Part shown: in pieces, positions 18,301 through 51,855 of the stretch
How the letters are laid out: each line of letters opens with the position of its first letter
How positions within the stretch are numbered: position 1 is the stretch's first letter
IMG/VR virus record: IMGVR_UViG_3300025093_000011
Coordinates: 49,199 to 113,198 of that record
Length of the DNA: 64,000 bases
Direction: 5' to 3' (one strand)
DNA from: a virus
The notes under the pieces: model-generated
Database searches by the model: none
Seen by the model: only the letters and a program-made list of their open reading frames with translations
Told to the model about the DNA's origin: nothing
Program-made: the position numbers and the translations under genes

Positions 18301-19266
18301 ACAAGTAAACAAACTGCAGAACTTATAGCTGAAGAAAGAAAAGGACAAGGATTAAGTTCAGAAATTCAAGAGTTTAAGGTTATGCCGAGTGATGTTGCAG
18401 CAGTAGTTCCAGGAATAGAATCTGAACTTTTAATAAATATTAATACTGGTAATATTAATAGAATTTCAAATACCGCTAATAAACAAGAGAAAGCTTTAGA
18501 AGAACTTCTAAGTGAAAAAGAACAAATTCAAAATGAGCTTTCTAAAGTAGAAGCTGATTTAGCAAAAACTAAAAAAGATAAAAGTGAAGGAACTTTTCCT
18601 TTTGCAGATAGCATATATAACAAAGCTGTAAAAGACAAGACTACTAAAATTAAAAATTTAAAATATCAAATAGTAAAGCTTGATAAACAAATAGCTGCTT
18701 TAGATAAAAATAAAATAGATTCTACTGACTATGTTGCAAGTATTGAAAACATGCAAGATACTGGAGTCTATGATAATTTATTTGATACCTATCAGGCACT
18801 AGATAGAGATAAAGTAAACTTAAAACCATCTGAGTATAATATGTATAAATCTCAACTTGATGATTTAGCTACTTTAGCATTTAATCTAACAGAGTCTGAA
18901 AAAATTGATAGCTTTAAAAAGTATGATGTGGTAAATGTTCTTCAAGATAAAAATGGTAAACCTTATTTATCAAGTGGTGATCAGTTTAGAGTTGTTAATG
19001 CAAATGTAAAAGACAATACTATAACTGTTAAGAAAGCAGGTAAAGGAAATAATAAAACAAAAACTATAACTCTTGATGGTTATAAGAAAGCTATTCAAGT
19101 TTCTGATCCAGGAACTGGAGATAGAAGTTCATCTGAAATAGATAATAATAAAGAATCTAAAACAAAGTTTGAAGATTATATAGCAGATAAAGAAAATTTA
19201 GATAAATTAGATGGTCAGAATAATCAGCCTGAAGATTATAATGATGACAGTATTTTTAAATGTTAG
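12316..19266 (+). CDS. Giant virion protein with PD-(D/E)XK nuclease domain
   Basis: A 2316-aa protein. Residues 1-45 are Met/Gln/Glu-rich. Around 255-290 lies a hydrophobic Gly/Ala segment that could touch membrane. Long stretches (about 640-1000 and 1580-1660) look like coiled coil. A RecB/Cas4-type PD-(D/E)XK domain sits at about 1330-1465: helix RGDTLDALVRDFFDA, then GSLDLVIVD with D1409, YIADLKTG with D1423 and K1425, and a QxxxY motif at Q1457-Y1461. This set matches active members of the fold. It directly precedes the RNA-polymerase giant, 13 bases apart. I infer a virion-carried protein; the nuclease could act on host or superinfecting DNA or in genome processing. It ends in a Cys, as do two of the following proteins. 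Confidence 0.85.
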   Translation: MAEELENQNMQDVANEQMNQQMMSQQDQANQQEQSVEQKVFNLDNTQNEPVDPNVTSTLGAAQLMNNLNTSFPALPVDNKFDIPAPQVQENVVGLPDQPPGPYAVKTQGDALVQMLRDQSERTSRTENKDFGMFYNYDNGPDGNAFYKRYAALVGTSDSLFGGKTFDNKTFDQIGFSPLRNNEANFNAHTTGWNDWGRMYRHSFPVLFKRGFVDGPKSMIKAFSGDFRGADLADAKEYEEAAAIGMSSKDGVGPWFNNTVMNFGYTAGIILEAIAEEFALSAMTLGSGGLGAGVQASRTAQLIKGIGKGLGKFGSGGKAVKDLLKATSTVPGARGLFNGVKKTGKFFNPLENTTSTISALYKGSNGGKYVTGIAAMSKTAGALYRDMRALNMAVSESRLEAGMVENKVFDKLYKKHYKDFGVRPTAKQQADMREQAKVASLSTFNSNAPIIYLTNRLTFRNVVSPKGGLRNFIKNTREDIYKIGATAGERNFGTLGKVIYNNSKKAFEFEANNLKGLAKSWWKNPGYKTAAKTLGYFKSNFSEGFQENFQEIVARSTEKYYTEAFETNVVSSSLYANAVNDMTFKIQTGSVPTNVYRDEIKNELSAEGFKTFASGFAMGMFSAPLNQAIPFLSTQYNRIYHKDEYVKWKRDKLKITKELAKDLNNINTGDLLNQRLMNVGMQDIIADIYKNGSKKEALDAELEGFVKTVSVMSKTGTFGVFIDKLEEMKTQTDEELIDDVGSSDIKEAPKYRERIDRTIARLKSIDENLKTAREKLENPVTDEMIETAADNKEKESLKTLQSAWNKSVTNFVFFNESFKDTLQRMNSIQTNYLKGDLLSDVDYAASKVIFEPTKRIKGQINILKSEIEIEENKDDTNKTKVRDLKNQIKYLEEYEKAYTEFNKFYNRGPLVAAAVKSLKESGVKEPTEEQIEKEVNKKVGKIDDEKKQVLILGNLKKAHDEYIKSLATDAAVPMLQENLDKAFNELLDFYKLGEESSMMANYINILHDPGEFLKLVTETQKAQEEAQAKMESLIKNLIDKQVKNVEHNQLLNTLASHAPPLFFAEGQFIDFYNNGIEPTHFLGIDGERYEKGSPEYGSGLALVKKQLELNKIKLSNVDTAKNIEMTPEMKKSVEMIKAVFADSMDIISSQGVYKFQGVDFERVSNIVNSIYGDYGYQDINNRLFGVEFNESFSDPVFNEKLQRQVNRVDESGNEIFNFNEATINSYIDKLAAANLPGFNTATINNLRSELLSLAEGNILNSNQKEIDKLTKLKENEQSQFRKENLDREIKKLQEESTITEDLNLERVKQVITDIIPRITYESGRQRGDTLDALVRDFFDASITDFTYDSTKITKEAFETLFGENGFLTKLKEAESRGDIYVFSKNLTLADNNLSDKDGNLLPPAAGSLDLVIVDKSGKVYIADLKTGSLNKWNSYQVASPGTKQQYNYKKYFQNSMQQRAYANLLYNKSNGMIDAETLILPVQTKEDPETGKVTLASKPEQGDLVAIPEILEEEMFIYADKDLKYIDEDNNLYMVLQIDKKIPRIDKGTDQKEMNDEEVLNDAIKELQSELEELRKDETPSQKRINEVELELKQTRSILAESKLTPEQKAKRDADAERTAYNKAVTKRKNKAFKEIKETKLIISDRNSSGYKTTYTDSNGEVYILNEIILPQKDKETGKYKPITEADKQRAYKKIQRRILNLADFDKSDYKRQAKVDNTIDNITGRTFPFFVGKDALGNPYEHNLTVLSVYVMDDGNYRIRAKNNVNQNGYDMVVTPDGDVVKHFREGRFSPSENEIIFSADSFARQKTEAEKEEEKDSVTDKRADIEKRREISLIVVDQLSEEEVKELDKYDEIEAAMPIAGDSETGYEAYYYPNINEEVYSTDDLSEEDSKDINKVKAWVNAKYDAELAALEAKGKPVAEPESYKNAVEEYKKTDLGGGTEAQIAKDNLIKEAKTKEGKAFVEDQVDRLEKNDDGTITVYRAGTIQEGNIPVTTSKQTAELIAEERKGQGLSSEIQEFKVMPSDVAAVVPGIESELLININTGNINRISNTANKQEKALEELLSEKEQIQNELSKVEADLAKTKKDKSEGTFPFADSIYNKAVKDKTTKIKNLKYQIVKLDKQIAALDKNKIDSTDYVASIENMQDTGVYDNLFDTYQALDRDKVNLKPSEYNMYKSQLDDLATLAFNLTESEKIDSFKKYDVVNVLQDKNGKPYLSSGDQFRVVNANVKDNTITVKKAGKGNNKTKTITLDGYKKAIQVSDPGTGDRSSSEIDNNKESKTKFEDYIADKENLDKLDGQNNQPEDYNDDSIFKC

Positions 19267-19279: not shown

Positions 19280-22200
19280 ATGATAAAGTGTACACTTGGA
19301 CAACCACAATTTGATTGGCTTTACGGTTCTACTAAAGCTGCAATAAAAGCTGAATTAGATAATGGTAAGTCTTTTAATGTTAGTTCATATATGGATTTCT
19401 TATATGAAAGAATTAAAAAGGCTGAAGATGCTGATAGAGCTGCTCAATTTTTAGCAGTTACTCCTGATATATTAGACCTTGTTATATCTAGAAATTATGC
19501 AGATAATATTGATAATATAACTGGAGTAGAGCAGTTAACTAAGTTAAGAGCTAAGTTCTCTAATCCTGAAAGTAACATTGATAATGTAATTGAATTTTTT
19601 GAAAAAGATAATAAAGTTAATTTAGAAATAAATAAACAAAATAAAATCAATACTAAAGGAGCTACAGTAAATAAAGTTGATACTAAATATAAATCAGGTG
19701 GTCCAAGACTTTTAGCTAATACAATTTTATCTGCAACTTTTCCTGAGTATAAATCTGAAGGAGGAAAGTTTGATCCAGAAACTATTAATCCTGAAAGAAA
19801 TCTTATAAATAAAACATTAAGTAAGATAGCTGAGTCAATTGATTTACAAAGTTCTCTTTTGCAGTTTCCTGAATATCAAGGTAAGAAGATTGCACTTAGA
19901 GCAGTTAACATGTCTAGTTTTACTTATGGTGGTACAGCAGAAGGTAGAACTAACTTTAGTAAATTAGATTCTACTACACAAGATGAGATCATGAGATCTA
20001 GAAAATTATCTAGTGCTGCTATAGCTAAATCTGATGTGACTCAAGTTAACAAAAGAGCTTTAATTGTAGTCATTGATGCAGAGACTGGTAAACCTTTGTC
20101 ATTTAATTTTAATGGAGATATTGTTGATTCTAAAGATATAAATGGAAAATATGTTTTTCAGTTTATGAGAGACATACAAAAAGTTGGAAATACTTATACT
20201 GTAAAAGATATTTATGGTATAGAAGATAGAGTTGATACATCAAACGTTGACCAAAAAGACCTTGAAGATGCTTATAAGTTAAAACAAAAAGCTTTAAGAG
20301 GTGATGGTGTAGTTCTAAACTTTTTAGGAATGACAGAAGGTGTAGATTCACAACTTACTAAAAAAGAGTTTAGTCTTAAAGAGCTTATGGATCAAGGACA
20401 GATAAAGGAAAAAGACTTAAGTACTTTAAAAGTTTTACCTAAAGATTCTTTTGGTTTTAAAGCTGGATCAACTGTTATAAAAATTAACGGTACTTATTAT
20501 AAGTTAAAAGGAAATAGAGTAACACCTGTAGTAGATCAAATTATAGATGTGCTCTTTTCTAAAAAGGTTGGAAGAAAACAGAAGATTGAATTCTATTCTC
20601 AGTTTATTCCGGAAAATAATAAACATAGATTAACTTATACAGCAAGGAGACATGTTATAACACCACTGAAAAACGGTAGAATAGCAATACAAATATTTGA
20701 TAAAGTTGCTAAAACAGAAGAAGGTTGGCCGACTGTTGATGGTAAAACAGAAGGTTTAACACATACTTTCTTTATTGCTGAAAACGGAGATGTAATTGAT
20801 AAAACTCCTATGGGTGAAGTTGTAGTTACTAATCCTGAATCAGTAGAAGAACTAAAAAATATATTTAGAGATGCATTAAATAATGCTTATGCTCCACCAA
20901 AAGGAGGTGCTAGTTTTATGCATTATGATACAGATCTTATAGAGAGACCTAATGACTTTTTAGAATATAGAGATGGAAAATTCCCATCTAGAAACTATAT
21001 AGATTTTTTAATGTCTCAACCTTCTATAGTAGAAATACAAGCTTCACAAAAAGGTTTCTTTAATAAGCAAATACTATTTGAAGAATCAAATAAAGAAGTT
21101 AAAAAGGAAGATCCTAATGCAGATCTTATGGGTCCTAAAAGAACTTTAAGTGCAGAAGAATTAGCATTGATTGACCTTTCTGAAAATTTAGAAAAGTATA
21201 GAAAACTTTTACCAAAACAAACTACAGAAAACTATGCTGTTCTTTCATATATTTTAGATCAAGTAACTGGAAATAGATATAGTGAACAACTTGCTAGAGA
21301 TGTATTTGATCTTTATAATGGGCCTTTACAAAATACTTTTACTAGTGCACAAGTAAAAGAATTTAATAGAAAGTTAAATAGTTTATTCCCACCTATTACA
21401 CCTGAGCAAAATAAAAAAGATATTGAAGATAATCAGGATGATATAAGTGGTCAAACATCTTTAGATCTTGATTTAGATAGATCTGGAAACTTAACTTCAG
21501 ATACTATTTCAAAAGAAGATTTAAAGAATGCAAATGACTTTTGGAAGAATAGTAAATTAGGTAAAAAGTTAAGTAAATATATTGAGCTTAACCGTGCTGC
21601 AAATATTGCAAACTCTGATGCATATGCAAAGTTCATTATTGATGGAGCACAATTATTAAATCCAGATGTCTTAGGTAGAATAGACATAAATAAAGCTAAG
21701 GGAACTTTAGTAGATGTGTATCATGAAGCTTTTCATGGATTTACACAGCTGTTTTTATCTAAACAAGAAAAGATTGATTTATATAATGCTGTTTTAAATT
21801 ATAAAGATAAGTCTGGAAGAAAGCCTTATGAAAATATGAGTGAGTTAGAAATTGAAGAATTTCTTGCAGAAGACTTCAGAACTTACATGAAAGGTAACTA
21901 TAAAAGAAAAAGCACTTTAATAAATAGAATTTTTAGAAGAATCTTAAATATTTTAAAAGCTATATTTGGTGTAAAAAGTAAACCAGTTGTATCTAGCTTA
22001 AAGGTTGATGCAATGGCTATACCTGCTGTAAATGAACTTTATACAAAACTTAATTTTTCTGAAAAGTATCCTGGCTTTTTAAATAAGTATAAAGCTAGTA
22101 TAGATAATGTTATGTTTTATCAACTAGACCGTGGTGTTACTGCTGTTGATAAATTAAAGAATGAAAAATATAGAAGAACTGTATTATCTAAACAAGATTC

Positions 22201-25200
22201 TGACTTTATGTCTAGTAATATAGATTCTATCATATCAGAAGAAATTGATAAGTTTTACGATGTTAAAGTTGGTAAGTCAACAAATTCAGAATTAATTGCT
22301 AAATATAAAGGAGCTAATATATCTGCTTTATTAAAACCAGGAAATAGAGCACAGATTTATAAAGAAGTTTTAAAAAGATTAAAAGACACTTTAGCTGAGT
22401 TGACTGATAAACATTCTACTAGTGAAAACACTATAAGTAAAATAGAAGATTTTGAAGGAATAGAAACTGCTGCCGTTGCAACCTTAGTAGTAAATGAAGA
22501 CGACTCTACTAAAGATCCTAATAAATATTTTTTCTTAAGTTCTCAAATTGATTCATTTGATAATCTAACTCCTAATATGAAAAGAGGAGATAGAATTAAA
22601 GGTGAAACTTGGCAAGGTGTTAAAATAGTAGGTGATTACTATGTGCATAATACTATTAAAGATGGTAGCAATAGAAAAGCAGAAATAATTGTAATATCTG
22701 AATTAGAAGATGCTGAAATTCAATTTGATAATTATATAAAAGCTGGTGCAAAAAAATATGAGAGAGTAGATGTTAAAGAAGCTACAGAGCCTGAATTAAC
22801 AATTGAAGATGAGAATGTTTTAAATAACATGCGTCTTTTAGAAACCTCAATAAAAAACTTTGGTGATCCTTTCTATGAATCAAAAGGTGGTAAACCCACA
22901 GGTCTTATTAAATATCATTTACAAAATTCAGATTTTGAATTTGGTAAAGTTAAGTATGTTGTTGAGGAAGAAGTAAATGAAAAAGGAGATGAATTAGGAG
23001 AATCAGACTCACCAGTATCTGAAGGTCTTGAAAGTATGGATCCTGAATATTATGATAATAAAAAGTCATTATATGATTTAGCAGATAGTGAAGTTATTTA
23101 TCTACTAAAAGGATTATTTAAAGTTGATTCTAATGGAAAGCCTATAAAGAATTCTTTAGGATTTAATGAAAGAGAAGACTTTAGAAGTACTTGGAACTTG
23201 GTTTCTAAAAGTATTGGAGGTATTCAAGATAGACAAAAAGCATTTGATATTTTAAAAGAAGAAGCAGAATTATTTCCTGCTTTAAAACAATTAGTTGATT
23301 ATAAACTGCCAGGCCCAGAAGGTATTAAGAATACTTATGCATTTGATATTAGCTCATCTTTTTGGCATACATTTGCTAGACCATCTGCAAAGTTTTGGCA
23401 AGTATCAGTTATAGAGGGTGAACCTGTACTACAAGAATCTTCTCCAGCAGCAGCTAAAGTATTAACTAATTTTAAAAGTTACTTTAAAAGCTTTCCTAAT
23501 CCTTATGTTAAAGATCAAACTTTAAACTTAGAGAAGCTTGTTAAGTCTTTTAGCAATAACAATGGAGAGATTAACTCTAAAGATTTTAAAAGTTTTTTAA
23601 ATGCTTTAGGTATTATTCTTGACAATACTAAAAAAATTAATACTGCAATAGATAACTCTGATGTTCAAATAAATAAATTATTTGATTTAGTTAAAGACAT
23701 AGAAACTATTTCGCAAAAAGAAACTTTAAGTAAGAATGAAAAAATACTAGTAAGTAGATTTACACAAGATCCTATTACTACATTACAAACTTTAGAATGG
23801 AGTAAATTTATGTATTTACTTCCTAGTTTTAAAACAGTTCAGATATTAGCACCAGTATCAACTATTAATTTATTTGCTAATTTGCAGTCTAAGTATGGAT
23901 TTGATTCTCCTGTAGAAAATATAATTCTTCCTGATGGCAATAAAGCTTTTGCTGTTACAAATCATAGTTCAGTTAGTTCTATGGTAGATGGTATAAATAA
24001 TTTAGATGAATTAGATAATGCTTGGGCAGATACTAATTCACATATGTCTTTTCTAGATCCTTCTAAAAACTTCTTTACAAATAGGTCAAAACTAATAGCA
24101 TCTATTTTTGATCCAGTTACCGGTAAAAAAATTAAAGGTAGAGAATTAAACTTTTTAGCTTTTGCAGGTTTAGAAGTGGTTGATGAAATGGTTGCTCAGG
24201 GAATTAATACTCCAGATCTAGTTCCTATAGATAAATTTTACTTAGCATATAATACAATGATGCAAAAAGGAATTGGTGAGTTTATTAGACATGCTGAGAA
24301 AAGAATGGCTTTTGGTATAGCACCAAATGAAAAAAGTCAAGTGATTTTAGATAATGGTTTAAAGTCCGGGACAGATGGTCTATGGATTTCTAAAGATTTA
24401 TTTCAAAATGAATTAGAAGTTAGTGAAGGTGAGTTAATGGCTATTGAAGGTTACTTACTAGATTATATAGGTGTTGAGTTTGATAGAATTAGTTTCTTTA
24501 AAAAGAATCCAGAAGTATTGAAAAATACAATAGGATTTAATAGAGATGTAAGAGGTACTAAAGCTGGTTTAACTTTTGGTTTAACAGATGATCTTTTAAC
24601 TAAAGATATTAAAAAGACTTTAACTGGATTAGCTGAAACTTTAGATGAGAATGAAGACATTGTTGAATACATAAAAGCAGATTCTAAACTTTATGATGAA
24701 ATTTCAAAAAGCATCACAAATTATTTTAATCAAGTAGCAGAAGAAACTTATAAAAACTATGTAAGTAAAATAAAATCTATACCTCAAGACATGGTTTCAG
24801 TAAAAGCTTTTGTCTATAATGATTACATTAATAAGTTTGAAATGTTTAATCTAATACATGGTGATGCTGTTCAGTTTAATCATAGTAAAGAACAAGCTAC
24901 TAAACGTGCACCAGGTTCTACATCTAATGGAGATAGCTTTGTTTATGATGAGTATGCACAAGACTTTATTAATCAGGTGTTTCAGGGAGAAAATGTTAAC
25001 ACATATGCTAAAGAGCTTAGTAAAGAACTAGATGATGAAACTATACAAGACTTTAACTTTGATGGTACTCTTAATACAGGAGTTATAAAAGACCCTAAAA
25101 GAAAGACTGTATATATGGATGAACTAGTTGAGGGTTGGACAGAAGCTTATGAAAAAGCAGGACTGACTCCACAGGAAATAAAATACAGACTTGAAAAAGA

Positions 25201-28200
25201 TCGTGATCCATATGAAGGAATTGAAGAAGCTGATGGAGCTGCATTTGCAACGTTAGATGCATACAGGATGCTTAAAAAATTAGGAGGTCCAAATGAATGG
25301 ACTAGTGAACAAGAAAACTTATATCAGCAAGTAATTAAAGGTGAAGATACTGATCCATTAAAAGTAAAGGAAGCATTTCCGGTTTATAAACTGCATTATT
25401 ATGGTCCCTTAATGAACAGTGAAATTAATACAACTCTTATGTATAAATTTGCTGTTGCACCTATCATACCTACAATTGCTAAATCAGATACAGAATTGTA
25501 TAAATTGCAGAAGTACATGATTGAAAATAATTTTCAAATGATTACAATGAGTACTGGTTCAAAAGTATCTACTTTAACAATGAATGGTGAATTTGATGAT
25601 ATATATCTACCTTCTGATAATGATTATTTTAAAGATAAATATATTAATCCAAATGCTAAATTAGCAAATAATAAGATTCATATTAGATATTTAAAAAATG
25701 TTACTAAGGTAGCATCTAAATTAAAAAAGACTATAACTAAACCAACTCAAGAAAGAATAATGACCATTAGTGGTTTATTCAAAGAAGGTGAAATTAATGA
25801 TAAACATAGAGAATTTTATAATGAATATAAGAATGCTGTTGATGCTTTAACAGATGCCTATGAACAAGAATTTTTAGATGAGATTGGTTATGAATTTAAA
25901 GATGGTAAATATGTCGGTAAGCTAGATAACTTAATAAGAGTTATAAGAGATGAGCTTGAATTAAAAGATGTACCTGTACAATTACGAGCTGCACTAGATG
26001 TAGATCTTAATGAACAACTTAGTAAAGATTTTTCATTACATCCTGAAGCAGGGTTAGTTGAAAAAATTGTAATTAATAGAATAGCAAAAGCACTTGTAAG
26101 ACAAAAAGTAAAAGGAGAAAAAGACATACAAGTTCCAAGTACTTTTTATAATGGACTATGGAGTTCTGAATATGAACAGGATCCAAAGATTATTAATGAT
26201 CCTAAAGAAATAAAAAAGTTTTTAGGTAGTAATAATTTACCTAGTTATAGAAGAGGTGATATATTAAAAGGTAAAAACGGTAAGATATTAAAAGATAAAG
26301 ATGGATATCCTCTAAGAGAAAAAACAAAGTTAGCTAAAATTGCTGTTTCTATTAACCATGGTGATTTTATTAATTTATTAAACCTTGAATACAAAGGTAA
26401 AAAGATTGGAACAAGACAAAACTTAAATAAACTTATAAAAGATGATAAGTTTTTAGAAGAGCATGGTGATAAAGTTAGAATAACAGGACCTAGGATTCCT
26501 GTAGATGATTTGAATCTAAAGGATGGTTTTGAAGTGTGGCACTTTTTAGATGCTTCTTCTGCTAATACTGTAGTAGTTCCTACAGAAATTGTTGCAAAAG
26601 AAGGTTCTGACTTTGATGTTGATGCATTATTTTTATCTTTCCCTACTATAAATAAAGATGGATCTTTTCCAATTAAAGTTGACTTTAAGAAAGAGTATGC
26701 AAAACTAAAGGCAGAAAATAAAAGTACTAAAGCATTAATTGAAAACCAAATAGGTTATGCTCAAAATGAATTAATTAGAACTGAGCTAAATATATTAACA
26801 TTAGCAGACAACTATGCAAATCTTACAAAACCAAATGCAACTTATCTAATATCTGATGAAGCTGAAGGTTTTTATAAAGAGTATGCTCAAGAGTTTGATC
26901 CTTTAGCTAATAAGAATACTACAGAAAGATATGTTAGTCCTACAACAGTAACTAATATTAATTATGATGTTAATAAGTTTGCTCAGTTATTAGGAGGTGC
27001 TAAACCTTTAGGGATGCTTGCTAAGAAAAAGAAACAACATGTTCTATATAAATATGCAGGTATGGCAATGCCTGGACAAATTCTTATTGATGATGATGTT
27101 TCATATAATTATGTACCTAACTTTAAGTTTGAATATCAAAAAACATCTGATGGTAGAATATCTTTTTCTCACGAGAATTCTGTAACAAATCAAGATATTT
27201 CAACTACATTTTCTCATAGCTTTCAAGGAGTTCTTGATAGAGGAAATAACCCATTCCCTGCATATGTGAACTTTACAAAAGATTCACTTCCTGTATTTAA
27301 TAGAATGTTAGAATCAGGAATAGATAAAAGCATTGCTTTAGCACTTATAAACCAACCAATAATTAAAAGGTTTCTTAATGATTTAAATGAAACTAAAGGT
27401 ATAGTGGCTGTATTAAATGGTCAGCAAAGCACTAAAGGTGAAGTTTTAGAAAACATTTTATTAGGTCTTTCAGATAATTTAAGAGCTATTGTATATAATG
27501 CAGTGGATGTTGCTAATGAAAACAGACTTGATAAAATATTAGATAGCAATGAGGTATCTGCACTAGATGGTAAGTTTTCTGTAAAATATCTTGATGGTTA
27601 CACTGAACAAACCGAATGGAAAACTTATAAAACTCTAAAGGGTTTAAAAACTTTCATTAAGAAAAATTCAGATAATAGTTATGAACTTGTTATTAATGAA
27701 AGTAAACTAGGAAATAAAACTAGAGTTTATCAAGAAAAAGGTTTAAGATTTTTTGCTTGGTCACCTAATGAGTTGGCAGATGTTTTATGGAAAGATTCAT
27801 ATGGTAGTAATGCTCCTACTGTAGAAGAGTTACAAAATAATATTTCTAAACTTGAACCAATTGCTTCTCAAAAATATTTGATGGATCAAGCTGCTTTATT
27901 ACTTTACTTTTTACAAATTCAAAACTTGTCTTCAGATTTTGAACAGTTTGAAATTGACTTTAATCCAGATACTAGTATTTTAGATACTATGGCTTCATTA
28001 GATATTTATGAAAGAAATTTAAATAGATTACTGAAGGATCCTTTTAGTAAATTAGATACAGCTGGTGCTAATAGATTAATGAAAGAGTCAGTTTTATCTT
28101 CAATGAATAAGTATGAGATTTATAAAGATATAGTAATTCCTTTATTTCCATTAAGATTAAATTCTAGAATAAACTTCTTCTTAGTAAATTCTCTTTTGGA

Positions 28201-30868
28201 TAAAAAATTTAAGAAAAGAGTTACTGATGTATATGGTACAAGAAAAGAAGATGTAGATAGATTTATTTCAAACTTTAATAATGCTATAGTAGATTACATT
28301 TATCAAAATACAATGTCAGGAATGCCTGATACTGTAGGATTACCTCAAACTATTCCTAATGAAAATCCTTATAACCTACCTGTTGAGTCTGCAGAATTAA
28401 GTTATGAAAAACCTGTTGAATTTACAGATAGTAAAATTAAAGTAGACTTTAAAAAGATTGATGCAATTTTTAAAACTAAAAGATATCTATCAAATAATAA
28501 AAGCAGTACATCTTTTGCTGAATTAGGTTTGGATACATTTAAACAGAATGAAGATCCTTTTACAAATAAAGATTCTTTTGTAAAATATTTAATTGAGAAA
28601 GAATCTTTGTATAATCAATATGATGTAAAGGATTTTAAAAATAAAACTGAATATGAACAATTTATTTCTAAAAGAGCTTTATTAAATAACTTTAATCATA
28701 AATACATAATGGGTAGAACTAAGTATTCTTATACTCAAGATGTTGTAAAGATGATACAGTCTAATAAATTACTTATGGAAAGATATCCTGTATTAAAACA
28801 ATTGAATAGTTCATTCTTTATGAAAGGTGTTGGATATAATCTATTAGAATTAAGAGATAAAGGTATAATTGATTCAAGTACTTCAAACTTATACAGCAAA
28901 CAGTTAACTCAACTTGGAGATGTGACAGTTAAGAAAGTAAAAGATAAAGCTAAAAATAAAGAGATTAGTGATATATTTAAAAACTTTTTCTTAATAACCC
29001 TATATCAGCATGGTATTGGAAGAGGTATTATAAACTTTCCACAGATACAGAATCCAGAAACTTTTATGGAAATTATGAGTAATACTACTAATTCTTTCTT
29101 AAATAAGACTCTTGAATCTAAAGGTAGTGGTGAGATTTTCAACTTTATTACCAATAGACTTTTAGCTCCTAATGTTTATAAGAACTATGTTCAAAGTGCT
29201 AATGCATTTAATGGTACAAATATAGAAACTGACTCAATTCCTACAGAGGATTCTCAGTTACAAAAGTTAGAAGAAGATATTACACTCATAGAGTTTGGTA
29301 TTTCTATAGGGGCTGCTACTGAAGCTGAGTTAAATGCAGCTAGGGAAAGACTTAATAAGTATTTGGATCAAAATAAACCTAAACGTCCTAATAACTTAAA
29401 TGTTAAAAAAGGTAGTGGAGTTAAAATTATATCTGAACCTTATGGAGTGGCAGTTATTGAAACAAATCCAACAAAAACATTACAGTCTAAGTTTTTAGAT
29501 CTTATTAAACCTCAAATAAAAGCTCAAGCTATAAAAGAGAATAAAGGTAGAAATGCTAACTTGATGTTCCAATTTGGATTAAGATGGGCTAGAGTAGAAC
29601 TTTCTGCTCAACCTTTAGAAATTAATTCTCCATCATATGATTCTAATGCTAGAAAGAAAGAGATTGCAGCACTAGAAAAATCTAATAAAGATAAAACTGA
29701 TAAGTTTGTGTATGCATATCATCAACTAGATCAGAATGGAACTCTATTACCGGAACTATCAGAACTACAACCTATAATAGATGATATACAAAAATCTTTA
29801 GGAATAGATATGTCTAATTATGATGCAATGATTGGTAACATATATTTACCAGGACAAGCTGTAGCTACACATAAAGATGTTACTGAAAGTAAATCTGCAG
29901 AAAATTATCCTGTAATAGTATATACACTTGGTGCAGGAAATGCAATAAACATTTATGAAAATGTTAAAGATCCAGGTAAAGCATCATTCGCATCTGATAA
30001 AAAAGTTACTATACCAACTAAAGCAGGTACTATATATACATTTGGTTTAGAAGGAAAAGGTAGATTTGAATTAGCACATGATACACCAAGAGCTATACAG
30101 AAAGGTGAAGCATTAGAACCTATCACTCTTCCTGATGGTAAAGTAGTAAAAGATTATACTATTACACTTACTTTTAGAAGAGCAGCTGATTTAGATCCAG
30201 GAATGCCTAAGACACCTAAATCATTAATATCTACTCCAACTGAAGAAGTTGAAGAAGTAGATATACAACCTATTGATATATCATCTAATAGTAGAGGTCT
30301 TGGAGGTGCTCTTACTAACCCTACAGAATTATCTAAATCAAAAGGTAATATTGCTATGTCATATCCTGTTGAAGTTAGAGGTAAAAAATATCAAGATGCT
30401 GAGGCAGCATACCAAGCTTTAAAAGATAAAAAAGAGAGTACTACTAAACCTTCTAAAGATAAAAGTAGTAACTTTGCATTGATGACAGAAATATTAACTA
30501 ATAAACTAGATACTTATCCAAATCTATTTTCAGAGATTCAAAACAGAGGAGGTCTAGCATTTCTTAATGTATCAGTTCATCAACCTACTAATAAGAACAC
30601 TGTATGGGAAAGTGGAGGTCAGAATTGGTTTATAGAATCTTTGGCTGAAGCCTTTGTTGCAACTCAAGCAACATATAACTTGCAATCTATACAAGGTAGT
30701 TTATTTATTGATCCTTCAATATCTAATTATTATAATAGCTTAAGTAAGAAAGAAAAAGAAGATCTTGAATTAAGATATGGAAATGAACAGTTTGCTCAAG
30801 CTCAATGGGATAGTGCTCCTGCAAGTTTCACAATGGAACAATTTATTGAAATATTAAAATGTAAGTAA
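19280..30868 (+). CDS. Giant polyprotein: crAss-like virion RNA polymerase with zincin, AlkB-like and NADAR-like domains
   Basis: At 3862 aa this is the largest gene in the window. Residues D2444, D2446 and D2448 in GSDFDVDALFL match the catalytic DFDGD-type motif of RNA polymerase double-psi beta-barrels. An upstream GPRIPVDD segment and the VVVPTEIVAKEG strand fit the beta-prime-like barrel. Known crAss-like virion polymerases carry this motif in very large late proteins. Other domains: HEAFH zincin motif at H815-H819 with candidate third ligand E859/E860; AlkB-like dioxygenase at about 3500-3640 with H3531, D3533, H3600 and R3633-R3634; a C-terminal NADAR-like region (about 3680-3845). It starts MIKC and ends LKCK. 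I infer it is packaged, injected and transcribes early genes, possibly after proteolytic cleavage. The second barrel could not be placed by eye. Confidence 0.85.
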   Translation: MIKCTLGQPQFDWLYGSTKAAIKAELDNGKSFNVSSYMDFLYERIKKAEDADRAAQFLAVTPDILDLVISRNYADNIDNITGVEQLTKLRAKFSNPESNIDNVIEFFEKDNKVNLEINKQNKINTKGATVNKVDTKYKSGGPRLLANTILSATFPEYKSEGGKFDPETINPERNLINKTLSKIAESIDLQSSLLQFPEYQGKKIALRAVNMSSFTYGGTAEGRTNFSKLDSTTQDEIMRSRKLSSAAIAKSDVTQVNKRALIVVIDAETGKPLSFNFNGDIVDSKDINGKYVFQFMRDIQKVGNTYTVKDIYGIEDRVDTSNVDQKDLEDAYKLKQKALRGDGVVLNFLGMTEGVDSQLTKKEFSLKELMDQGQIKEKDLSTLKVLPKDSFGFKAGSTVIKINGTYYKLKGNRVTPVVDQIIDVLFSKKVGRKQKIEFYSQFIPENNKHRLTYTARRHVITPLKNGRIAIQIFDKVAKTEEGWPTVDGKTEGLTHTFFIAENGDVIDKTPMGEVVVTNPESVEELKNIFRDALNNAYAPPKGGASFMHYDTDLIERPNDFLEYRDGKFPSRNYIDFLMSQPSIVEIQASQKGFFNKQILFEESNKEVKKEDPNADLMGPKRTLSAEELALIDLSENLEKYRKLLPKQTTENYAVLSYILDQVTGNRYSEQLARDVFDLYNGPLQNTFTSAQVKEFNRKLNSLFPPITPEQNKKDIEDNQDDISGQTSLDLDLDRSGNLTSDTISKEDLKNANDFWKNSKLGKKLSKYIELNRAANIANSDAYAKFIIDGAQLLNPDVLGRIDINKAKGTLVDVYHEAFHGFTQLFLSKQEKIDLYNAVLNYKDKSGRKPYENMSELEIEEFLAEDFRTYMKGNYKRKSTLINRIFRRILNILKAIFGVKSKPVVSSLKVDAMAIPAVNELYTKLNFSEKYPGFLNKYKASIDNVMFYQLDRGVTAVDKLKNEKYRRTVLSKQDSDFMSSNIDSIISEEIDKFYDVKVGKSTNSELIAKYKGANISALLKPGNRAQIYKEVLKRLKDTLAELTDKHSTSENTISKIEDFEGIETAAVATLVVNEDDSTKDPNKYFFLSSQIDSFDNLTPNMKRGDRIKGETWQGVKIVGDYYVHNTIKDGSNRKAEIIVISELEDAEIQFDNYIKAGAKKYERVDVKEATEPELTIEDENVLNNMRLLETSIKNFGDPFYESKGGKPTGLIKYHLQNSDFEFGKVKYVVEEEVNEKGDELGESDSPVSEGLESMDPEYYDNKKSLYDLADSEVIYLLKGLFKVDSNGKPIKNSLGFNEREDFRSTWNLVSKSIGGIQDRQKAFDILKEEAELFPALKQLVDYKLPGPEGIKNTYAFDISSSFWHTFARPSAKFWQVSVIEGEPVLQESSPAAAKVLTNFKSYFKSFPNPYVKDQTLNLEKLVKSFSNNNGEINSKDFKSFLNALGIILDNTKKINTAIDNSDVQINKLFDLVKDIETISQKETLSKNEKILVSRFTQDPITTLQTLEWSKFMYLLPSFKTVQILAPVSTINLFANLQSKYGFDSPVENIILPDGNKAFAVTNHSSVSSMVDGINNLDELDNAWADTNSHMSFLDPSKNFFTNRSKLIASIFDPVTGKKIKGRELNFLAFAGLEVVDEMVAQGINTPDLVPIDKFYLAYNTMMQKGIGEFIRHAEKRMAFGIAPNEKSQVILDNGLKSGTDGLWISKDLFQNELEVSEGELMAIEGYLLDYIGVEFDRISFFKKNPEVLKNTIGFNRDVRGTKAGLTFGLTDDLLTKDIKKTLTGLAETLDENEDIVEYIKADSKLYDEISKSITNYFNQVAEETYKNYVSKIKSIPQDMVSVKAFVYNDYINKFEMFNLIHGDAVQFNHSKEQATKRAPGSTSNGDSFVYDEYAQDFINQVFQGENVNTYAKELSKELDDETIQDFNFDGTLNTGVIKDPKRKTVYMDELVEGWTEAYEKAGLTPQEIKYRLEKDRDPYEGIEEADGAAFATLDAYRMLKKLGGPNEWTSEQENLYQQVIKGEDTDPLKVKEAFPVYKLHYYGPLMNSEINTTLMYKFAVAPIIPTIAKSDTELYKLQKYMIENNFQMITMSTGSKVSTLTMNGEFDDIYLPSDNDYFKDKYINPNAKLANNKIHIRYLKNVTKVASKLKKTITKPTQERIMTISGLFKEGEINDKHREFYNEYKNAVDALTDAYEQEFLDEIGYEFKDGKYVGKLDNLIRVIRDELELKDVPVQLRAALDVDLNEQLSKDFSLHPEAGLVEKIVINRIAKALVRQKVKGEKDIQVPSTFYNGLWSSEYEQDPKIINDPKEIKKFLGSNNLPSYRRGDILKGKNGKILKDKDGYPLREKTKLAKIAVSINHGDFINLLNLEYKGKKIGTRQNLNKLIKDDKFLEEHGDKVRITGPRIPVDDLNLKDGFEVWHFLDASSANTVVVPTEIVAKEGSDFDVDALFLSFPTINKDGSFPIKVDFKKEYAKLKAENKSTKALIENQIGYAQNELIRTELNILTLADNYANLTKPNATYLISDEAEGFYKEYAQEFDPLANKNTTERYVSPTTVTNINYDVNKFAQLLGGAKPLGMLAKKKKQHVLYKYAGMAMPGQILIDDDVSYNYVPNFKFEYQKTSDGRISFSHENSVTNQDISTTFSHSFQGVLDRGNNPFPAYVNFTKDSLPVFNRMLESGIDKSIALALINQPIIKRFLNDLNETKGIVAVLNGQQSTKGEVLENILLGLSDNLRAIVYNAVDVANENRLDKILDSNEVSALDGKFSVKYLDGYTEQTEWKTYKTLKGLKTFIKKNSDNSYELVINESKLGNKTRVYQEKGLRFFAWSPNELADVLWKDSYGSNAPTVEELQNNISKLEPIASQKYLMDQAALLLYFLQIQNLSSDFEQFEIDFNPDTSILDTMASLDIYERNLNRLLKDPFSKLDTAGANRLMKESVLSSMNKYEIYKDIVIPLFPLRLNSRINFFLVNSLLDKKFKKRVTDVYGTRKEDVDRFISNFNNAIVDYIYQNTMSGMPDTVGLPQTIPNENPYNLPVESAELSYEKPVEFTDSKIKVDFKKIDAIFKTKRYLSNNKSSTSFAELGLDTFKQNEDPFTNKDSFVKYLIEKESLYNQYDVKDFKNKTEYEQFISKRALLNNFNHKYIMGRTKYSYTQDVVKMIQSNKLLMERYPVLKQLNSSFFMKGVGYNLLELRDKGIIDSSTSNLYSKQLTQLGDVTVKKVKDKAKNKEISDIFKNFFLITLYQHGIGRGIINFPQIQNPETFMEIMSNTTNSFLNKTLESKGSGEIFNFITNRLLAPNVYKNYVQSANAFNGTNIETDSIPTEDSQLQKLEEDITLIEFGISIGAATEAELNAARERLNKYLDQNKPKRPNNLNVKKGSGVKIISEPYGVAVIETNPTKTLQSKFLDLIKPQIKAQAIKENKGRNANLMFQFGLRWARVELSAQPLEINSPSYDSNARKKEIAALEKSNKDKTDKFVYAYHQLDQNGTLLPELSELQPIIDDIQKSLGIDMSNYDAMIGNIYLPGQAVATHKDVTESKSAENYPVIVYTLGAGNAINIYENVKDPGKASFASDKKVTIPTKAGTIYTFGLEGKGRFELAHDTPRAIQKGEALEPITLPDGKVVKDYTITLTFRRAADLDPGMPKTPKSLISTPTEEVEEVDIQPIDISSNSRGLGGALTNPTELSKSKGNIAMSYPVEVRGKKYQDAEAAYQALKDKKESTTKPSKDKSSNFALMTEILTNKLDTYPNLFSEIQNRGGLAFLNVSVHQPTNKNTVWESGGQNWFIESLAEAFVATQATYNLQSIQGSLFIDPSISNYYNSLSKKEKEDLELRYGNEQFAQAQWDSAPASFTMEQFIEILKCK

Positions 30869-31740
30869 TGGCTTGTATAAATAAATCAAATAAAACATAT
30901 CAAAATATAGAGAAACGTTATGGTGTATTCTTAGCTGAAGTCTATACAAGAAGTCATCCTAAGAATCTTTCTATGAAAGCTAATGATGATTTTTATATTC
31001 CTTCATTAAGTGAGGTATCTAAAATTGTTAAAGCTGAAGGTATTGATACTATAGAAAACTTTGATGCAAATATGAAACAAAATCCTTATATGACTGAAGA
31101 GTTTATAAGGGATTCATTAAAAGGAGTTATTAGAAAGCATAGAGGTGAATACTATGTAATTAAAGGTATAGATGTAGGACCTTTGCAAACAGCAATCTCT
31201 ATAAAAGAAATCTTTGAAAAAAATTATAGAGTAATGAATACTCTACAATCAAAGTATCCTCAAATAATATCTTTAAGACAAGGACGTAAGCCAAGAAGTT
31301 TTAAAGTTATTATAACTCCTCAGCAAAAACCTGAAGAGGTTGAAGAAAGAACTATAGAACCTAGCTTAAGAGCATATGCTAGATTAGTAGAGCTTAATGA
31401 TGGAGCACAACCCAAGATGTTTCAGAGTGGTCCGCATAGATGGCAAAGAGTCGGAAATAATCTATATACTCTTATAGATGAAGACACTGGAGCTGTGTTT
31501 ATGCCAAATGTTAATTTAGTAACAGGGATGCAAGAAGTTGAATCAAATACAACTCCTGTAAATCCTGAATATAAAAAGTATGTACTAAACCAAGTTAAAC
31601 CACTTAATACATCAGCTATGCAAGTATACTTAGCTGAAAGGGGTTATAATATGAATTTAATTATAAAAAACTTAGAATCTGCAGAAACTCAAGAAGAACT
31701 TCTTAGAGTATATAAAGATTTTGTTAAAACTGTATGTTGA
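30868..31740 (+). CDS. Unknown late protein coupled to the polymerase gene
   Basis: A 290-aa protein whose ATG overlaps the stop of the polymerase giant by one base (TAATG), a typical stop-restart arrangement that implies translational coupling. It is basic in its first half, with a short central region FQSGPHRWQRVGNNLYTL that looks like a small beta domain. No known domain is recognised. It opens with MACINKSNKTYQN, similar to the start of the following protein (MATCPNKNSKEW), and ends in KTVC. Position between the RNA polymerase giant and another large late protein suggests it belongs to the same virion cargo set; in relatives these may be fused or separate (inference). Confidence 0.8.
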   Translation: MACINKSNKTYQNIEKRYGVFLAEVYTRSHPKNLSMKANDDFYIPSLSEVSKIVKAEGIDTIENFDANMKQNPYMTEEFIRDSLKGVIRKHRGEYYVIKGIDVGPLQTAISIKEIFEKNYRVMNTLQSKYPQIISLRQGRKPRSFKVIITPQQKPEEVEERTIEPSLRAYARLVELNDGAQPKMFQSGPHRWQRVGNNLYTLIDEDTGAVFMPNVNLVTGMQEVESNTTPVNPEYKKYVLNQVKPLNTSAMQVYLAERGYNMNLIIKNLESAETQEELLRVYKDFVKTVC

Positions 31741-31741
31741 T

Positions 31742-34700
31742 ATGGCAACTTGTCCTAATAAAAATAGTAAAGAATGGAAAGAGATTCTTTCAGAAGCACA
31801 AAACAATGAACAAATTGCAATGGATCTTTGGATTAAAAAAGGATTCAATCAGCAAGAGGATTTAAACGAAGATGCTAAAGAGGGAGATCTAACTAATGAG
31901 GAAATAGAAGCACTGCAAGAGCTTGATCCTATGCAAAGATTAGCTCAAAAGACTAAAGTATATCTTCAAAAAAGAATTAATATTCTTTCAAATCAGAAAG
32001 TTAAAGACGTAGATAGAAAAACAAATAGGCTCAAAGAACTTTTACAAAACATGAAAGCTGTAGAGGAAGTTGAGTCAATAAATCTATTTATCGAAGAAGC
32101 ATATAAAATGTCTCAACAGTTAAAGCAAAGAACAAAACAATTTTTGATTGATGTAAAGAAAGAGGATGTTGATAGAAAAGAACTTATAGAAGCTTTAACT
32201 AATATAAACGAGTATGCAAACAGTTATAATATATTAGATGAGATATCTAGTGAAGATCTTTTTGATTTCTTTCAGTTAGACGAAGACGCTGAACAAAAAA
32301 TGTTTGAAGAAGATGAAGAAGGGAATGTGAAATTAAGTATGAAAGAAAAACTAGAAAGAGCAGTAACTACTAGAAATATCATACGACAAAGAATGCTGGA
32401 TGAAGGCATACCTTTATTAGCAGAGTTTTTATTAGATGCAAGATCAAAATACAGTGCTGAAGGTTTAGAAAAAGAAATTGCAGCAAAACGAGCAGAGATT
32501 GAAAAAATAAAGAATGATGTAACTAATGAAAAAAGAAGAGATAGACTTATTCAAAAAGTAGAAAGACAAATAGATCTTTTAAGCACGAAGGCTCAAGATA
32601 AAGATGGTATGATTAAGATACTAAAAGAAGCTGCTATAGAAGAAGGAGTCTTAGACTTTTTAGTAGGGCCATTAATTAGTTCACCTGATAGTGCTGTTGC
32701 ATTATTTGCTAAAGCAATTAAAGATCAGTTAGAGTTTGCTAGATTAAAAGATATTAATATTAAAAGAGAATTGACTGACGAATATTTAGAATACAGAAGT
32801 CAAGCTCCGGGATCAACTGACAATCCTCAAAAATTTAATGAAGGTTTATATACTGTAGTAGAAGTACCTGTATATGAAACGGTGCAATCAAAAAAGAATC
32901 CTAACTATTATTATAAGACGGTTAAGAAAGATGAGGCTGGTAATATAGTATATAAGAAAGAGGTACACTTTGTTGAAAGAATAGATAGAAAGAAATTTAA
33001 AGCTGCACAAGCCCAATGGTGGGCTGAAAACCCTAAGCCGCATGCAGATAAAATACCTGAGCAATTAACATCATCAGAAAAACAAGATGTTAGAAATTGG
33101 GAAAATAAAAAGAAGCAATGGTATAAAGAAAACATGACAGAGAAATCTGCAGAAGCTATTAAAGCTATTGATGATAAGATGAAGAATGAAAGAGATGCAG
33201 AAATCATTAGTAAAAAACAATACGCAAACTGGTTTAACAATGAAAGGTTTAAAGAGATACAAGAACCTTCTTCAAAGTATATAAGTGAGAAGTGGTTAGC
33301 AATGTATAACAAAGATGGTAAGCCTAAGAATGCAATGGGAGAATATCACAAAGCACTTACCGATACTTACTACGGTGCTCAAGAGTTATTACCTGAATCA
33401 CAACGAACAGGTTCTAGAATACCATCTATTCCTAAGAAAGATTTAGAAAGGTTATTAGATGAAGGAATTAGTAATCTAGTAAAGACTAACATTAAAGAAA
33501 CTATTTCTATACAAGCTTATGATACAGAATACGGTGGCAACATTGCAACTTTGGGAGGGGAAGCTGTGAAGTTCTTACCTATATTCTTTACACAAAATAT
33601 TGATGAATCAGATATAAGCTATGATTTATTAAGTTCTGTTTTATTATTTAGTCAAATGGCAAATAAGTATGACGCACTGAATGAAGTTAATGGTGAGATA
33701 TCTTTAATGAAACAAGTTATATCTAAAAGAGCTAATCCGAAATTTGATGAGGTATCTGGTAAGAAACAATTTGATGTAGTGGCTAAGAGATTTGGCCTTG
33801 AAGAATTTATTGTTAAGAGTGGAGAAAGTTTTACTAAAAAACATTTAGATGCATTTATTGATATGATTGTATATGGAGAGATGCAAAAGAAAGAAGTTCT
33901 CTTGGGTTTACAGTTTGATAAAATAACTAACACAATAACCGGATTTTCTGCACTAACATCTATTGCAGCTGATTTACTTAAAGGTGTGGCTAATAACTTA
34001 CAAGGTAATATACAATTAATTATAGAAGCATCGGGAGCAGAATTCTTTAGTGCTGCTGACTTAGCAAAATCTAAAGTTCAGTTCATGGAGAATGTTGCGG
34101 GAACATTAGGAGACTTTGGTAAACCTAGTCCTACAAGTTGGATGGGTAGACTTAATGAGTTATATGACCCTATACAAGGAGACTTTACTGATAAGTATGG
34201 AAGAATTGTTTCTGCAAGTGTAGCAAATAAACTATTTAGAACTAATACATTATTCTTTAATCAGTACTTTGGGGAATATGAAATACAAGTTTCAGGAATG
34301 CTAGCATTAATGAATGCTACAGAAGTTAGAGATAAGGAGAATGGTACTAATATAACTATGTATGAAGCACATAAGAAATATGGTCCTGATTCAGGTGATT
34401 TAAATGGGAAAGTTGAGTGGATTACTCAGGATAAAGATGGGAATAATGTTTATGAGGATTTTAATGAAAAGCATAGGAGATCTTTTCAAGATAGAGTTCA
34501 TGCATTAAGTAAAAAAATGCATGGTATATACAATACCTTTGATAAAGGTACTGCACAAAAGCAATCTTTGGGCCGTCTAGCTTTGATGTATAGAAAGCAT
34601 ATGTATCCTGGATTTAAAAGAAGATGGAAACAGTATTCTTGGGATGAGGAACTTGGTTCAGGGACTGAGGGTCACTATAGAACCTTTTGGAATACTTTTG

Positions 34701-35203
34701 TTAGAGATTTAAGAACTTATAAATTAAATGTTGCAAAAGAATGGAGTACATATACTCCTATGCAAAAAGCAAATATCAGAAGAACTCTTTCTGAGATAGG
34801 TGTGTTCTTAACAATTGTAGGTTTGATAGGTATTCTTTCAGCTATGGCTTCTGATGATGGAGAGGATAAAGAAAAGTATAAAGACAATTATCTTTATAAC
34901 TTTCTTCTGTATGAAATGGTTAGGATGAGATCAGAGACAGCTCAGTATATTTCTCCTAAAGATATGTGGAGAACTATAAAATCACCTTCTGCAGCTTTAA
35001 GTACCTTAAGTAGATTCATAAGATTTACAAATCAGATACTACCTTGGAATATTACAGAAGAGTATAAAAGAAAGTCAGGTATTTGGGAGAAAGGAGATAA
35101 CAAAGCATGGGCATACTTTATTAAATTAATTGGTCTTCCTGGTTATAATATTAAACCACAAGATGCAGTTAAAGTTTATGAGAACTTATCTAGAGCAATT
35201 TAA
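31742..35203 (+). CDS. Large late protein with C-terminal membrane segment, probable virion cargo
   Basis: I take the ATG at 31742, one base past the upstream stop, giving 1153 aa that begin MATCPNKNSKEWKEI; an in-frame TTG at 31721 would add seven residues inside the previous gene and is less likely. Residues up to about 330 are acidic/basic helices with coiled-coil character. A Lys/Trp-rich stretch follows at about 390-520. The C-terminal part is mixed helical, with one convincing hydrophobic segment near residues 1020-1042 (GVFLTIVGLIGILSAMA). No catalytic motif was recognised. As the last large gene of the late block it probably travels with the polymerase, and the membrane segment would suit a protein that contacts the inner membrane during ejection (inference). 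Confidence 0.8.
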   Translation: MATCPNKNSKEWKEILSEAQNNEQIAMDLWIKKGFNQQEDLNEDAKEGDLTNEEIEALQELDPMQRLAQKTKVYLQKRINILSNQKVKDVDRKTNRLKELLQNMKAVEEVESINLFIEEAYKMSQQLKQRTKQFLIDVKKEDVDRKELIEALTNINEYANSYNILDEISSEDLFDFFQLDEDAEQKMFEEDEEGNVKLSMKEKLERAVTTRNIIRQRMLDEGIPLLAEFLLDARSKYSAEGLEKEIAAKRAEIEKIKNDVTNEKRRDRLIQKVERQIDLLSTKAQDKDGMIKILKEAAIEEGVLDFLVGPLISSPDSAVALFAKAIKDQLEFARLKDINIKRELTDEYLEYRSQAPGSTDNPQKFNEGLYTVVEVPVYETVQSKKNPNYYYKTVKKDEAGNIVYKKEVHFVERIDRKKFKAAQAQWWAENPKPHADKIPEQLTSSEKQDVRNWENKKKQWYKENMTEKSAEAIKAIDDKMKNERDAEIISKKQYANWFNNERFKEIQEPSSKYISEKWLAMYNKDGKPKNAMGEYHKALTDTYYGAQELLPESQRTGSRIPSIPKKDLERLLDEGISNLVKTNIKETISIQAYDTEYGGNIATLGGEAVKFLPIFFTQNIDESDISYDLLSSVLLFSQMANKYDALNEVNGEISLMKQVISKRANPKFDEVSGKKQFDVVAKRFGLEEFIVKSGESFTKKHLDAFIDMIVYGEMQKKEVLLGLQFDKITNTITGFSALTSIAADLLKGVANNLQGNIQLIIEASGAEFFSAADLAKSKVQFMENVAGTLGDFGKPSPTSWMGRLNELYDPIQGDFTDKYGRIVSASVANKLFRTNTLFFNQYFGEYEIQVSGMLALMNATEVRDKENGTNITMYEAHKKYGPDSGDLNGKVEWITQDKDGNNVYEDFNEKHRRSFQDRVHALSKKMHGIYNTFDKGTAQKQSLGRLALMYRKHMYPGFKRRWKQYSWDEELGSGTEGHYRTFWNTFVRDLRTYKLNVAKEWSTYTPMQKANIRRTLSEIGVFLTIVGLIGILSAMASDDGEDKEKYKDNYLYNFLLYEMVRMRSETAQYISPKDMWRTIKSPSAALSTLSRFIRFTNQILPWNITEEYKRKSGIWEKGDNKAWAYFIKLIGLPGYNIKPQDAVKVYENLSRAI

Positions 35204-51479: not shown

Positions 51480-51495
51480 TTTTTTCTTAAGTTTG
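51467..51495 (+). promoter_or_regulatory. Bacteroidota-type promoter for the lone + strand gene
   Basis: TAAGTTTG at 51488-51495 matches the TAnnTTTG -7 box of Bacteroidota primary sigma-factor promoters, with TTG at 51467-51469, 18 bases upstream, as the -33 element. The ATG of the + strand gene follows 15 bases later, implying a very short leader. Confidence 0.55.
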
Positions 51496-51510
51496 TAAAA
51501 ATTAATAATT

Positions 51511-51855
51511 ATGAATAAAGAAGATTTAAAAAACAAAGTTATTAAAGATGATGCTTTAATTGACATTCAAGTTAATAAAACTTATTACATGATGTGCAAA
51601 GCTTCTTTATTTACTTTATTTAAAAATATTCATTCTCAATCTACAGAAAATGCTGAAGAGTTCATCAAAGAAGTTACTTCTAAAGGTTATGAAAACCTTG
51701 ATGAAACACAAAGAATATTCTATACTTTAACATTATTAGTAGGTGAAATAGAAAAGCAAGCTTTTAATAATAATCTTTTTGTAGATAAAAAAGATAATGA
51801 AAAAATTAAAGAAACTTTAGAAGAAGATTCTAAGGACAAATCTAGTGAAGATTAA
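51511..51855 (+). CDS. Lone + strand small protein within the - strand module
   Basis: 114 aa, ATG in AATAATTATG. The product is helical and charged: MNKEDLKNKVIKDDALIDIQ, then TYYMMCKASLFTLFKNIHSQ, ending in an acidic Lys/Glu tail (EEDSKDKSSED). No - strand gene covers this interval, and it has its own promoter-like sequence. It is divergent from ung (31-base spacer) and its end overlaps the convergent neighbour by 14 bases. Sharing the orientation of the late genes, it may be a late or separately regulated product. Function unknown. Confidence 0.8.
   Translation: MNKEDLKNKVIKDDALIDIQVNKTYYMMCKASLFTLFKNIHSQSTENAEEFIKEVTSKGYENLDETQRIFYTLTLLVGEIEKQAFNNNLFVDKKDNEKIKETLEEDSKDKSSED

Follow-up and report, generated by a model that had tools for sequence, protein, structure and literature searches.

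A crAss-like RNA polymerase chain carrying predicted zincin-like, AlkB-like and NADAR-like domains in a phage of the Crassvirales

The stretch of DNA analysed here (the window, 64,000 nucleotides) spans 49199-113198 of a virus record that is 113,198 bases long (IMG/VR IMGVR_UViG_3300025093_000011). It contains a co-oriented block of giant genes, among them a gene for an RNA polymerase chain of 3862 amino acids, while past 35.3 kb the genes lie on the minus strand and include replication proteins. The features of the block are listed below in window coordinates, with residue numbers referring to the 3862-aa chain and the basis of each assignment in brackets.

12316-19266, plus strand: 2316-aa ORF directly upstream of the polymerase, putative cargo protein (position in the virion gene block)
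19280-30868, plus strand: 3862-aa ORF, polyvalent crAss-like RNA polymerase chain (ORF call, domain architecture)
21566-22150, plus strand: predicted zincin-like metallopeptidase, residues about 763-957, with H815-E816-A-F-H819 (HExxH motif)
25067-27595, plus strand: core of a two-barrel RNA polymerase, residues about 1930-2772 (phi14:2 gp66 matched in tblastn and BLASTP; profile; AlphaFold2; Foldseek)
25388-25390, plus strand: K2037, invariant Lys, equivalent to gp66 K1012 (A3 alignment, mapped to gp66)
26603-26623, plus strand: GSDFDVD metal-binding loop with D2444, D2446 and D2448 (aligned with gp66 GSDFDID, 1359-1365)
29537-30181, plus strand: predicted AlkB-like 2OG/Fe(II) dioxygenase, residues about 3420-3634, with H3531, D3533, H3600 and R3633 (Pfam, Foldseek)
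30263-30664, plus strand: predicted NADAR-like domain, residues about 3662-3795, with H3767 (hhalign)
30868-31740, plus strand: 290-aa ORF separating the polymerase gene from the gp49/gp65 homologue, without a family match (ORF call, family searches)
31721-35203, plus strand: 1160-aa ORF, homologue of crAss001 gp49 and phi14:2 gp65, virion proteins associated with the RNA polymerase (phmmer, E=2.2e-53 and 7.6e-36)

The initial annotation had drawn attention to a DFDVD motif in the 3862-aa chain, and translation of the ORF bears this out: the frame across 26540-26660 reads HFLDASSANTVVVPTEIVAKEGSDFDVDALFLSFPTINKD, the sequence around D2444, D2446 and D2448 in the frame of ORF 19280-30868 is PTEIVAKEGSDFDVDALFLSFP, and DFDVD itself occupies nucleotides 26609-26623 (residues 2444-2448). 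Taken alone, the three-Asp pattern is a weak clue, since it occurs at near-chance frequency: bare DxDxD is present at two sites in the chain (residues 729 and 2444), and shuffling the chain yields a mean of 1.35 DxDxD and 0.07 DFDxD. The weight of the identification therefore rests on homology. A chance match within an unrelated giant protein would be in keeping with the roughly 1.4 DxDxD sites expected for a chain of such composition, as well as with a phmmer search of the PDB in which the lone sequence found no RNAP, but the profile, profile-profile, fold and synteny tests described below are concordant and already refute this reading, which we regard as having practically no remaining probability.

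Single-sequence searches of PHROGs and Pfam likewise did not detect the polymerase, and profiles were therefore required; blastn against phages gave no match, and a first viral contig scan with the window protein returned an identical contig only. With residues 1901-3100 as the query, tblastn against 50,697 phage records matched 24 records; those whose lineage was looked up are Crassvirales, and among the matches are cr108_1 (E=8e-14) and, at E=4e-9, g066 of phi14:2, which is its catalytic RNA polymerase subunit. BLASTP pairs gp66 1361-1365 with D2444-D2448. A scan of 2.9 million viral contigs, based on an alignment of five sequences and on a pattern that itself demanded I or V at motif position 4, identified 351 stretches coding for a relative. 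An alignment of the window sequence with 48 IMG/VR relatives and without phi14:2 (A3, n=49) has the loop residues G, S, D, F, D and D invariant across all 49 sequences, and the same is true of K2037, K2056, K2095, Q2157, R2405, I2406 and P2407. In gp66, K2056 and K2095 correspond to K1027 and K1065, Q2157 to Q1116, R2405-I2406-P2407 to R1322-I1323-P1324 and the loop to G1359-D1365, the single non-invariant loop position being Ile1364 in gp66. We regard the three lysines as candidate basic residues of barrel two.

Compared with the PDB, the A3 profile had one significant match, 6VR4 (phi14:2 gp66; E=1.2e-76), and hhalign against gp66 gave a probability of 100 and E=2.8e-44. A match to 6VR4 obtained with another alignment, A1, was set aside as circular because A1 includes phi14:2, and the search was redone with A3. 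AlphaFold2 run on A3 for residues 1930-2800 produced a model with a pLDDT of 81.9 and a pTM of 0.83; when this core model was compared with 350,542 PDB chains by Foldseek, 6VR4 was the only match below E=0.001 (E=2.3e-27, TM 0.65 by query length); all others lay above E=0.01, the next ones (E about 0.01-0.1) being mostly large subunits of cellular RNAPs and those listed almost entirely cellular RNAP subunits. A two-barrel RNAP fold of the predicted core is thus supported, on the basis of the Foldseek match to 6VR4 rather than of traced strands. The region around DFDVD is a crAss-like virion RNA polymerase and adds a member to a family already known. The initial annotation had placed GSDFDVDALFL at the metal-binding loop of these enzymes, and had proposed a profile search against crAss-like RNAPs and a fold prediction compared with gp66 as checks; the alignment with gp66 GSDFDID, the invariant Gly, Ser and Asp residues, the profile and the predicted fold all agree with this placement.

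Two points of detail required revision. The characterised enzyme had been thought to carry a DFDGD-type loop in which Gly is replaced by Val in the window, and this was mistaken, as the crAss-like enzymes examined carry Ile or Val: phi14:2 gp66 reads GSDFDIDKM (1361-1365 for the DFDID part) rather than DFDGD, cr4_1 and Rudgehvirus also have Ile at motif position 4, and crAss001 gp50 and cr55_1 read GSDFDVDKL and GADFDVDKM, respectively. Given DFDVD in the last two and DFDID in gp66, Val is, by sequence comparison, a normal residue of the family. Position 4 is Ile in 64 and Val in 16 of the 80 loci fetched, a set that is unable to show that Gly is absent elsewhere because the scan pattern required I or V. 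DFDGD belongs to other two-barrel RNAPs, for example gp96 of phage P23-45 (PMC10770324). The chain had also been described as far longer than gp66, which is correct (3862 versus 2180 aa), but its length is not exceptional: the RNAP chains of cr55_1, cr4_1 and Rudgehvirus measure 4551, 4491 and 4098 aa, and complete RNAP ORFs in the environmental loci range from about 2.2 to 4.6 kaa. Chains of 4.1-4.6 kaa are common in the Crassvirales, whose transcription block has been described as several large multidomain proteins (Yutin et al., PMC7886860).

Some RNAP genes of the order have unusual structures of their own. That of cr4_1 (L006 8524-21999) contains 38 in-frame TAG codons, TAG being presumably recoded, and that of cr108_1 is interrupted by a group I intron (L004 16445-16763; Rfam RF00028, 80 bits), which splits the catalytic motif exactly between GSD and FDID; in the deposited cr108_1 annotation the RNAP gene is broken into two proteins.

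The gene order around the polymerase is that of crAss001 gp50-gp49 and phi14:2 gp66-gp65, with the 290-aa ORF intervening here. For the 2316-aa ORF at 12316-19266 there is a weak PDDEXK_1 hint (E=0.097), and no relative was detected in the compared stretches of phi14:2, crAss001 and Lbo-JY46. To the left of the window, the record encodes a terminase (TerL, phrog_6681, E=2e-58) and a portal (phrog_6547, E=1.5e-91), both with many crAss-like matches, the best phages for TerL being cr55_1 and cr1_1 over about 90% of its length; an MCP was not identified. Judged from its crAss-like TerL and portal, the window phage belongs to the Crassvirales. The portal (L121 14561-17302) has its nearest match in the portal of Lbo-JY46 (PP438436.1; 34% identity, E=1e-107), a cyanophage in culture that infects Leptolyngbya boryana. 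Lbo-JY46 encodes a gp65/gp49-like protein of 2751 aa, and the RNAP core was not found in it; a cyanobacterial host range is possible for part of the lineage. The minus-strand replication block of the window further contains a uracil-DNA glycosylase gene (50766-51566) and a spore-photoproduct-lyase-like gene (53827-54669; PF20903, E=1e-18), together a combination of UV and base repair that is unusual among phages.

In crAss001, gp47, gp49 and gp50 have been found in virions (PMC10172136), and the annotation of phi14:2 gp65-gp67 is based on virion mass spectrometry. Since the gp49/gp65 homologues are virion proteins in both phages, the window chain is probably carried in the virus particle, and by the same analogy we infer that the packaged polymerase would transcribe early genes. 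That the polymerase is instead a non-virion enzyme, synthesised in the cell to transcribe middle or late genes rather than injected, is a conceivable reading insofar as the virion location is drawn from relatives and the virion and non-virion two-barrel RNAPs of some phages are distinct enzymes (PMC10770324). However, the gene lies in the virion block near the gp49/gp65 homologue, and searches of the record for another RNAP core found none, which makes this reading very improbable.

The suggestion that several other activities are fused to the polymerase is supported by the zincin-like, AlkB-like and NADAR-like domains in the same chain, their activities being predicted. The zincin-like domain has no Pfam match and owes its name to the HExxH motif, which aligns with YHESFH of cr108_1; a domain of this kind precedes the RNAP core in 76 of the 108 RNAP ORFs examined. 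The AlkB-like domain matches Pfam PF13532 (E=6e-6, 22.7-26.9 bits, below the curated cut-off of 31.2), and its AlphaFold2 model (pLDDT 81) has as top Foldseek match in the PDB the E. coli AlkB bound to methylated DNA (E=6e-9). Its predicted iron ligands H3531, D3533 and H3600 (HxD...H) are invariant in 20 of 20 AlkB copies, and R3633 is present in 19 of 19. The RxNxTFR motif reads TxTxTFR here, so that only the last Arg of R/N/R is retained; with the motif partly lost, the domain is therefore named "AlkB-like". Both replaced positions, which we take to be Arg204 and Asn206 of E. coli AlkB, are occupied by Thr, and this may alter co-substrate or substrate handling.

The NADAR-like domain of the window has no Pfam PF08719 match, and the best E among relatives of the domain is 0.07. 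Aligned with nine NADAR domains from the RNAP chains of relatives, it reaches an hhalign probability of 93 (E=2.7e-7), against 0.3 in a control comparison with AlkB; two of the nine reference NADARs were scanned directly, and both pass Pfam (L012, 52.5 bits, and L109, 55.6 bits; cut-off 35.1). H3767 is at the position of the catalytic His of phage NADARs (PMC11125620) and is invariant in the seven closest members. Conserved Glu/His positions are lost in the NADAR-like domains of some relatives, and the domain may be inactive in places. The two forms share a slot in the chain, with the order RNAP, window-type NADAR-like, X, AlkB in L097 and RNAP, NADAR, X, AlkB in L109. For the C-terminal region there was no phage tblastn match and no relative among genome contigs.

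A scan with the AlkB-like domain alone retrieved 26 contigs, several of them near-duplicates, and in 25 of these the domain and the RNAP core are in one ORF, the remaining contig being a truncated fragment. When loci were retrieved through the RNAP alone, 4 of 80 had the AlkB-like domain: L029, L030, L043 and L010, the last being the window phage itself. The fusion of RNAP and AlkB is therefore real, but not universal. In another relative (L015), the RNAP chain at 13898-18316 contains a separate AlkB of 66 bits, above the Pfam cut-off of 31.2, and an ART-PolyVal-like domain below the cut-off (E=3e-4), and NADAR is present in the RNAP chain of other relatives. On an RNAP tree of 109 rows (FastTree), the presence of AlkB and of NADAR-type domains changes at least 13 times each, although some tails end at a locus boundary, which can inflate these counts; on this evidence, both modules appear to have been gained and lost repeatedly. 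The tails of RNAP chains also contain two more recurring domains without a Pfam family, one set in L096, L102, L109, L112 and L120 and the other in L011, L036, L064, L066, L099 and L101; one of the domains starts with TNHSGGAxGAD and the other contains LSREWSGD...GKLDGATLLYAGK. The labels SLOG and DUF4326, given to them by eye, found no Pfam support, the only hit being cpYpsA at E=0.047.

Comparison with known systems places the novelty in the architecture. The window chain shares with phi14:2 gp66 (6VR4) a homologous core of about 690-790 aligned residues, the GSDFD[I/V]D loop, the conserved Lys, Gln and Arg-Ile-Pro positions and a gp65 homologue encoded downstream, but core identity is about 17-26%, the chains measure 2180 aa in phi14:2 and 3862 aa in the window, and the loop reads DFDID in the former and DFDVD in the latter. 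In phi14:2 a zincin-like HExxH (HEIMHDF) is found in gp65, whereas the window has its zincin, AlkB-like and NADAR-like domains in the polymerase chain itself. In crAss001, the gp50 loop is identical (DFDVD) and the gp49 homologue is adjacent; the zincin, however, is in another cargo protein, gp47, and gp50 had no match to the AlkB-like or NADAR-like profile.

The closest parallel in design is the N4-like virion RNAP, likewise a giant chain of polymerase, zincin and conflict-type domains, which is injected (PMC5512222), as the window chain would be. In N4-like phages a zincin is almost always fused to the virion RNAP, and ART and other effectors are sometimes fused to it as well (PMC5512222). 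The N4 polymerase is T7-like with an unrelated palm fold, unlike the two-barrel polymerase of the window, and AlkB and NADAR have zero occurrences in the survey of N4-like and polyvalent proteins (Iyer et al., 2017; PMC5512222). The window chain combines several unrelated domains, including an MPTase and conflict-type enzymes, as polyvalent proteins do, and the N4-like polyvalent design seems to have been reached convergently by the crAss-like polymerase with its two-barrel fold. In Thermus phage P23-45, the giant virion protein gp96 also combines a two-barrel RNAP with a metallopeptidase domain; in contrast to the window chain it is fused to the tail tape measure, and the available portion of its description mentions neither AlkB nor NADAR (PMC10770324). 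RNA-virus replicase polyproteins similarly join a polymerase to AlkB or NADAR/Macro modules (PMC9503650; Foldseek BFVD matches), but these belong to eukaryotic viruses and their polymerases are RNA-dependent and unrelated, so that the resemblance is convergent only. Searches of an open-access library brought up no account of a crAss-like RNAP with AlkB or NADAR in the same chain. What is new is the fused architecture; the polymerase family was already known.

The computed homology and fold of the polymerase, the order of the domains, the conserved metal ligands and the recurrence of the fusion are best explained overall by a crAss-like RNAP chain with appended zincin, AlkB-like and NADAR-like domains that is packaged, ejected and acts early, a reading to which we assign a probability of about 0.8. 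The chain would be packed in the capsid together with the gp49/gp65 homologue and ejected along with the DNA; the polymerase would then transcribe early genes, and the attached enzymes would work during the first minutes, with the incoming nucleic acid or signals of the host as their targets. We infer catalysis, together with a role in counter-defence or repair, for the appended domains: (i) the AlkB-like domain could remove alkyl or methyl groups from bases by oxidation, (ii) the NADAR-like domain could remove ADP-ribose from guanine or destroy ADP-ribose signals, and (iii) the zincin might have proteins of the host, or the chain itself, as its substrate.

Alternatively, these domains could have ceased to be enzymes and have a structural or packaging function, as segments filling the cargo zone of the capsid or guiding ejection. 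The replacement of the AlkB R204 and N206 positions and the NADAR-like copies in L061, L067, L076 and L082, which differ at otherwise conserved positions, would fit such a role, as would the C-terminal 1400 aa of the N4 vRNAP, described as needed for encapsidation (PMC5512222). Yet none of the 20 AlkB copies deviates at the H-x-D...H iron ligands, R3633 is kept in 19 of 19, and the domains are swapped for others of related function, including NADAR and AlkB of Pfam level, which is unexpected of spacers; we therefore consider purely structural segments unlikely.

A role in repair of alkylation or other nucleic-acid damage, or of RNA, instead of counter-defence is the main alternative. Direct repair is known AlkB chemistry, a link between NADAR and the repair of RNA has been drawn (PMC9503650), and the same phage carries the uracil-DNA glycosylase and spore-photoproduct-lyase-like genes in its replication block. 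Repair genes, however, are normally expressed in the cell and do not need fusion to an early-acting polymerase, and one relative adds the ART-PolyVal-like domain, a conflict domain; we thus take repair seriously, but place it well short of an even chance. Early protection of nucleic acid or signals is favoured, since NADAR enzymes reverse guanine ADP-ribosylation (PMC11125620), phage NADARs have been proposed to counter ADP-ribose-based defence (PMC9503650) and phage AlkB has been proposed to reset methyl marks (PMC7824862).

Extending this early-protection reading, the virion RNAP of environmental crAss-like phages could be a chassis for interchangeable injected enzymes (AlkB-like demethylase, NADAR, ADP-ribosyltransferase and the unnamed domains), which would neutralise nucleic-acid-directed defences such as guanine ADP-ribosylation and base modification before the first transcript, as a convergent DNA-phage counterpart of RNA-virus replicase polyproteins. 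We offer this tentatively, at slightly less than even odds.

In an abundant phage order, the virion enzyme of greatest complexity thus appears to enter the cell together with the genome and to bring along modules that edit nucleic acids and process ADP-ribose. Relatives exchange such modules, and a role of the modules in counter-defence or early repair is directly testable. The architecture extends the idea of polyvalent proteins to two-barrel RNA polymerases, and parallels the RNA-virus polyproteins that carry AlkB or NADAR.
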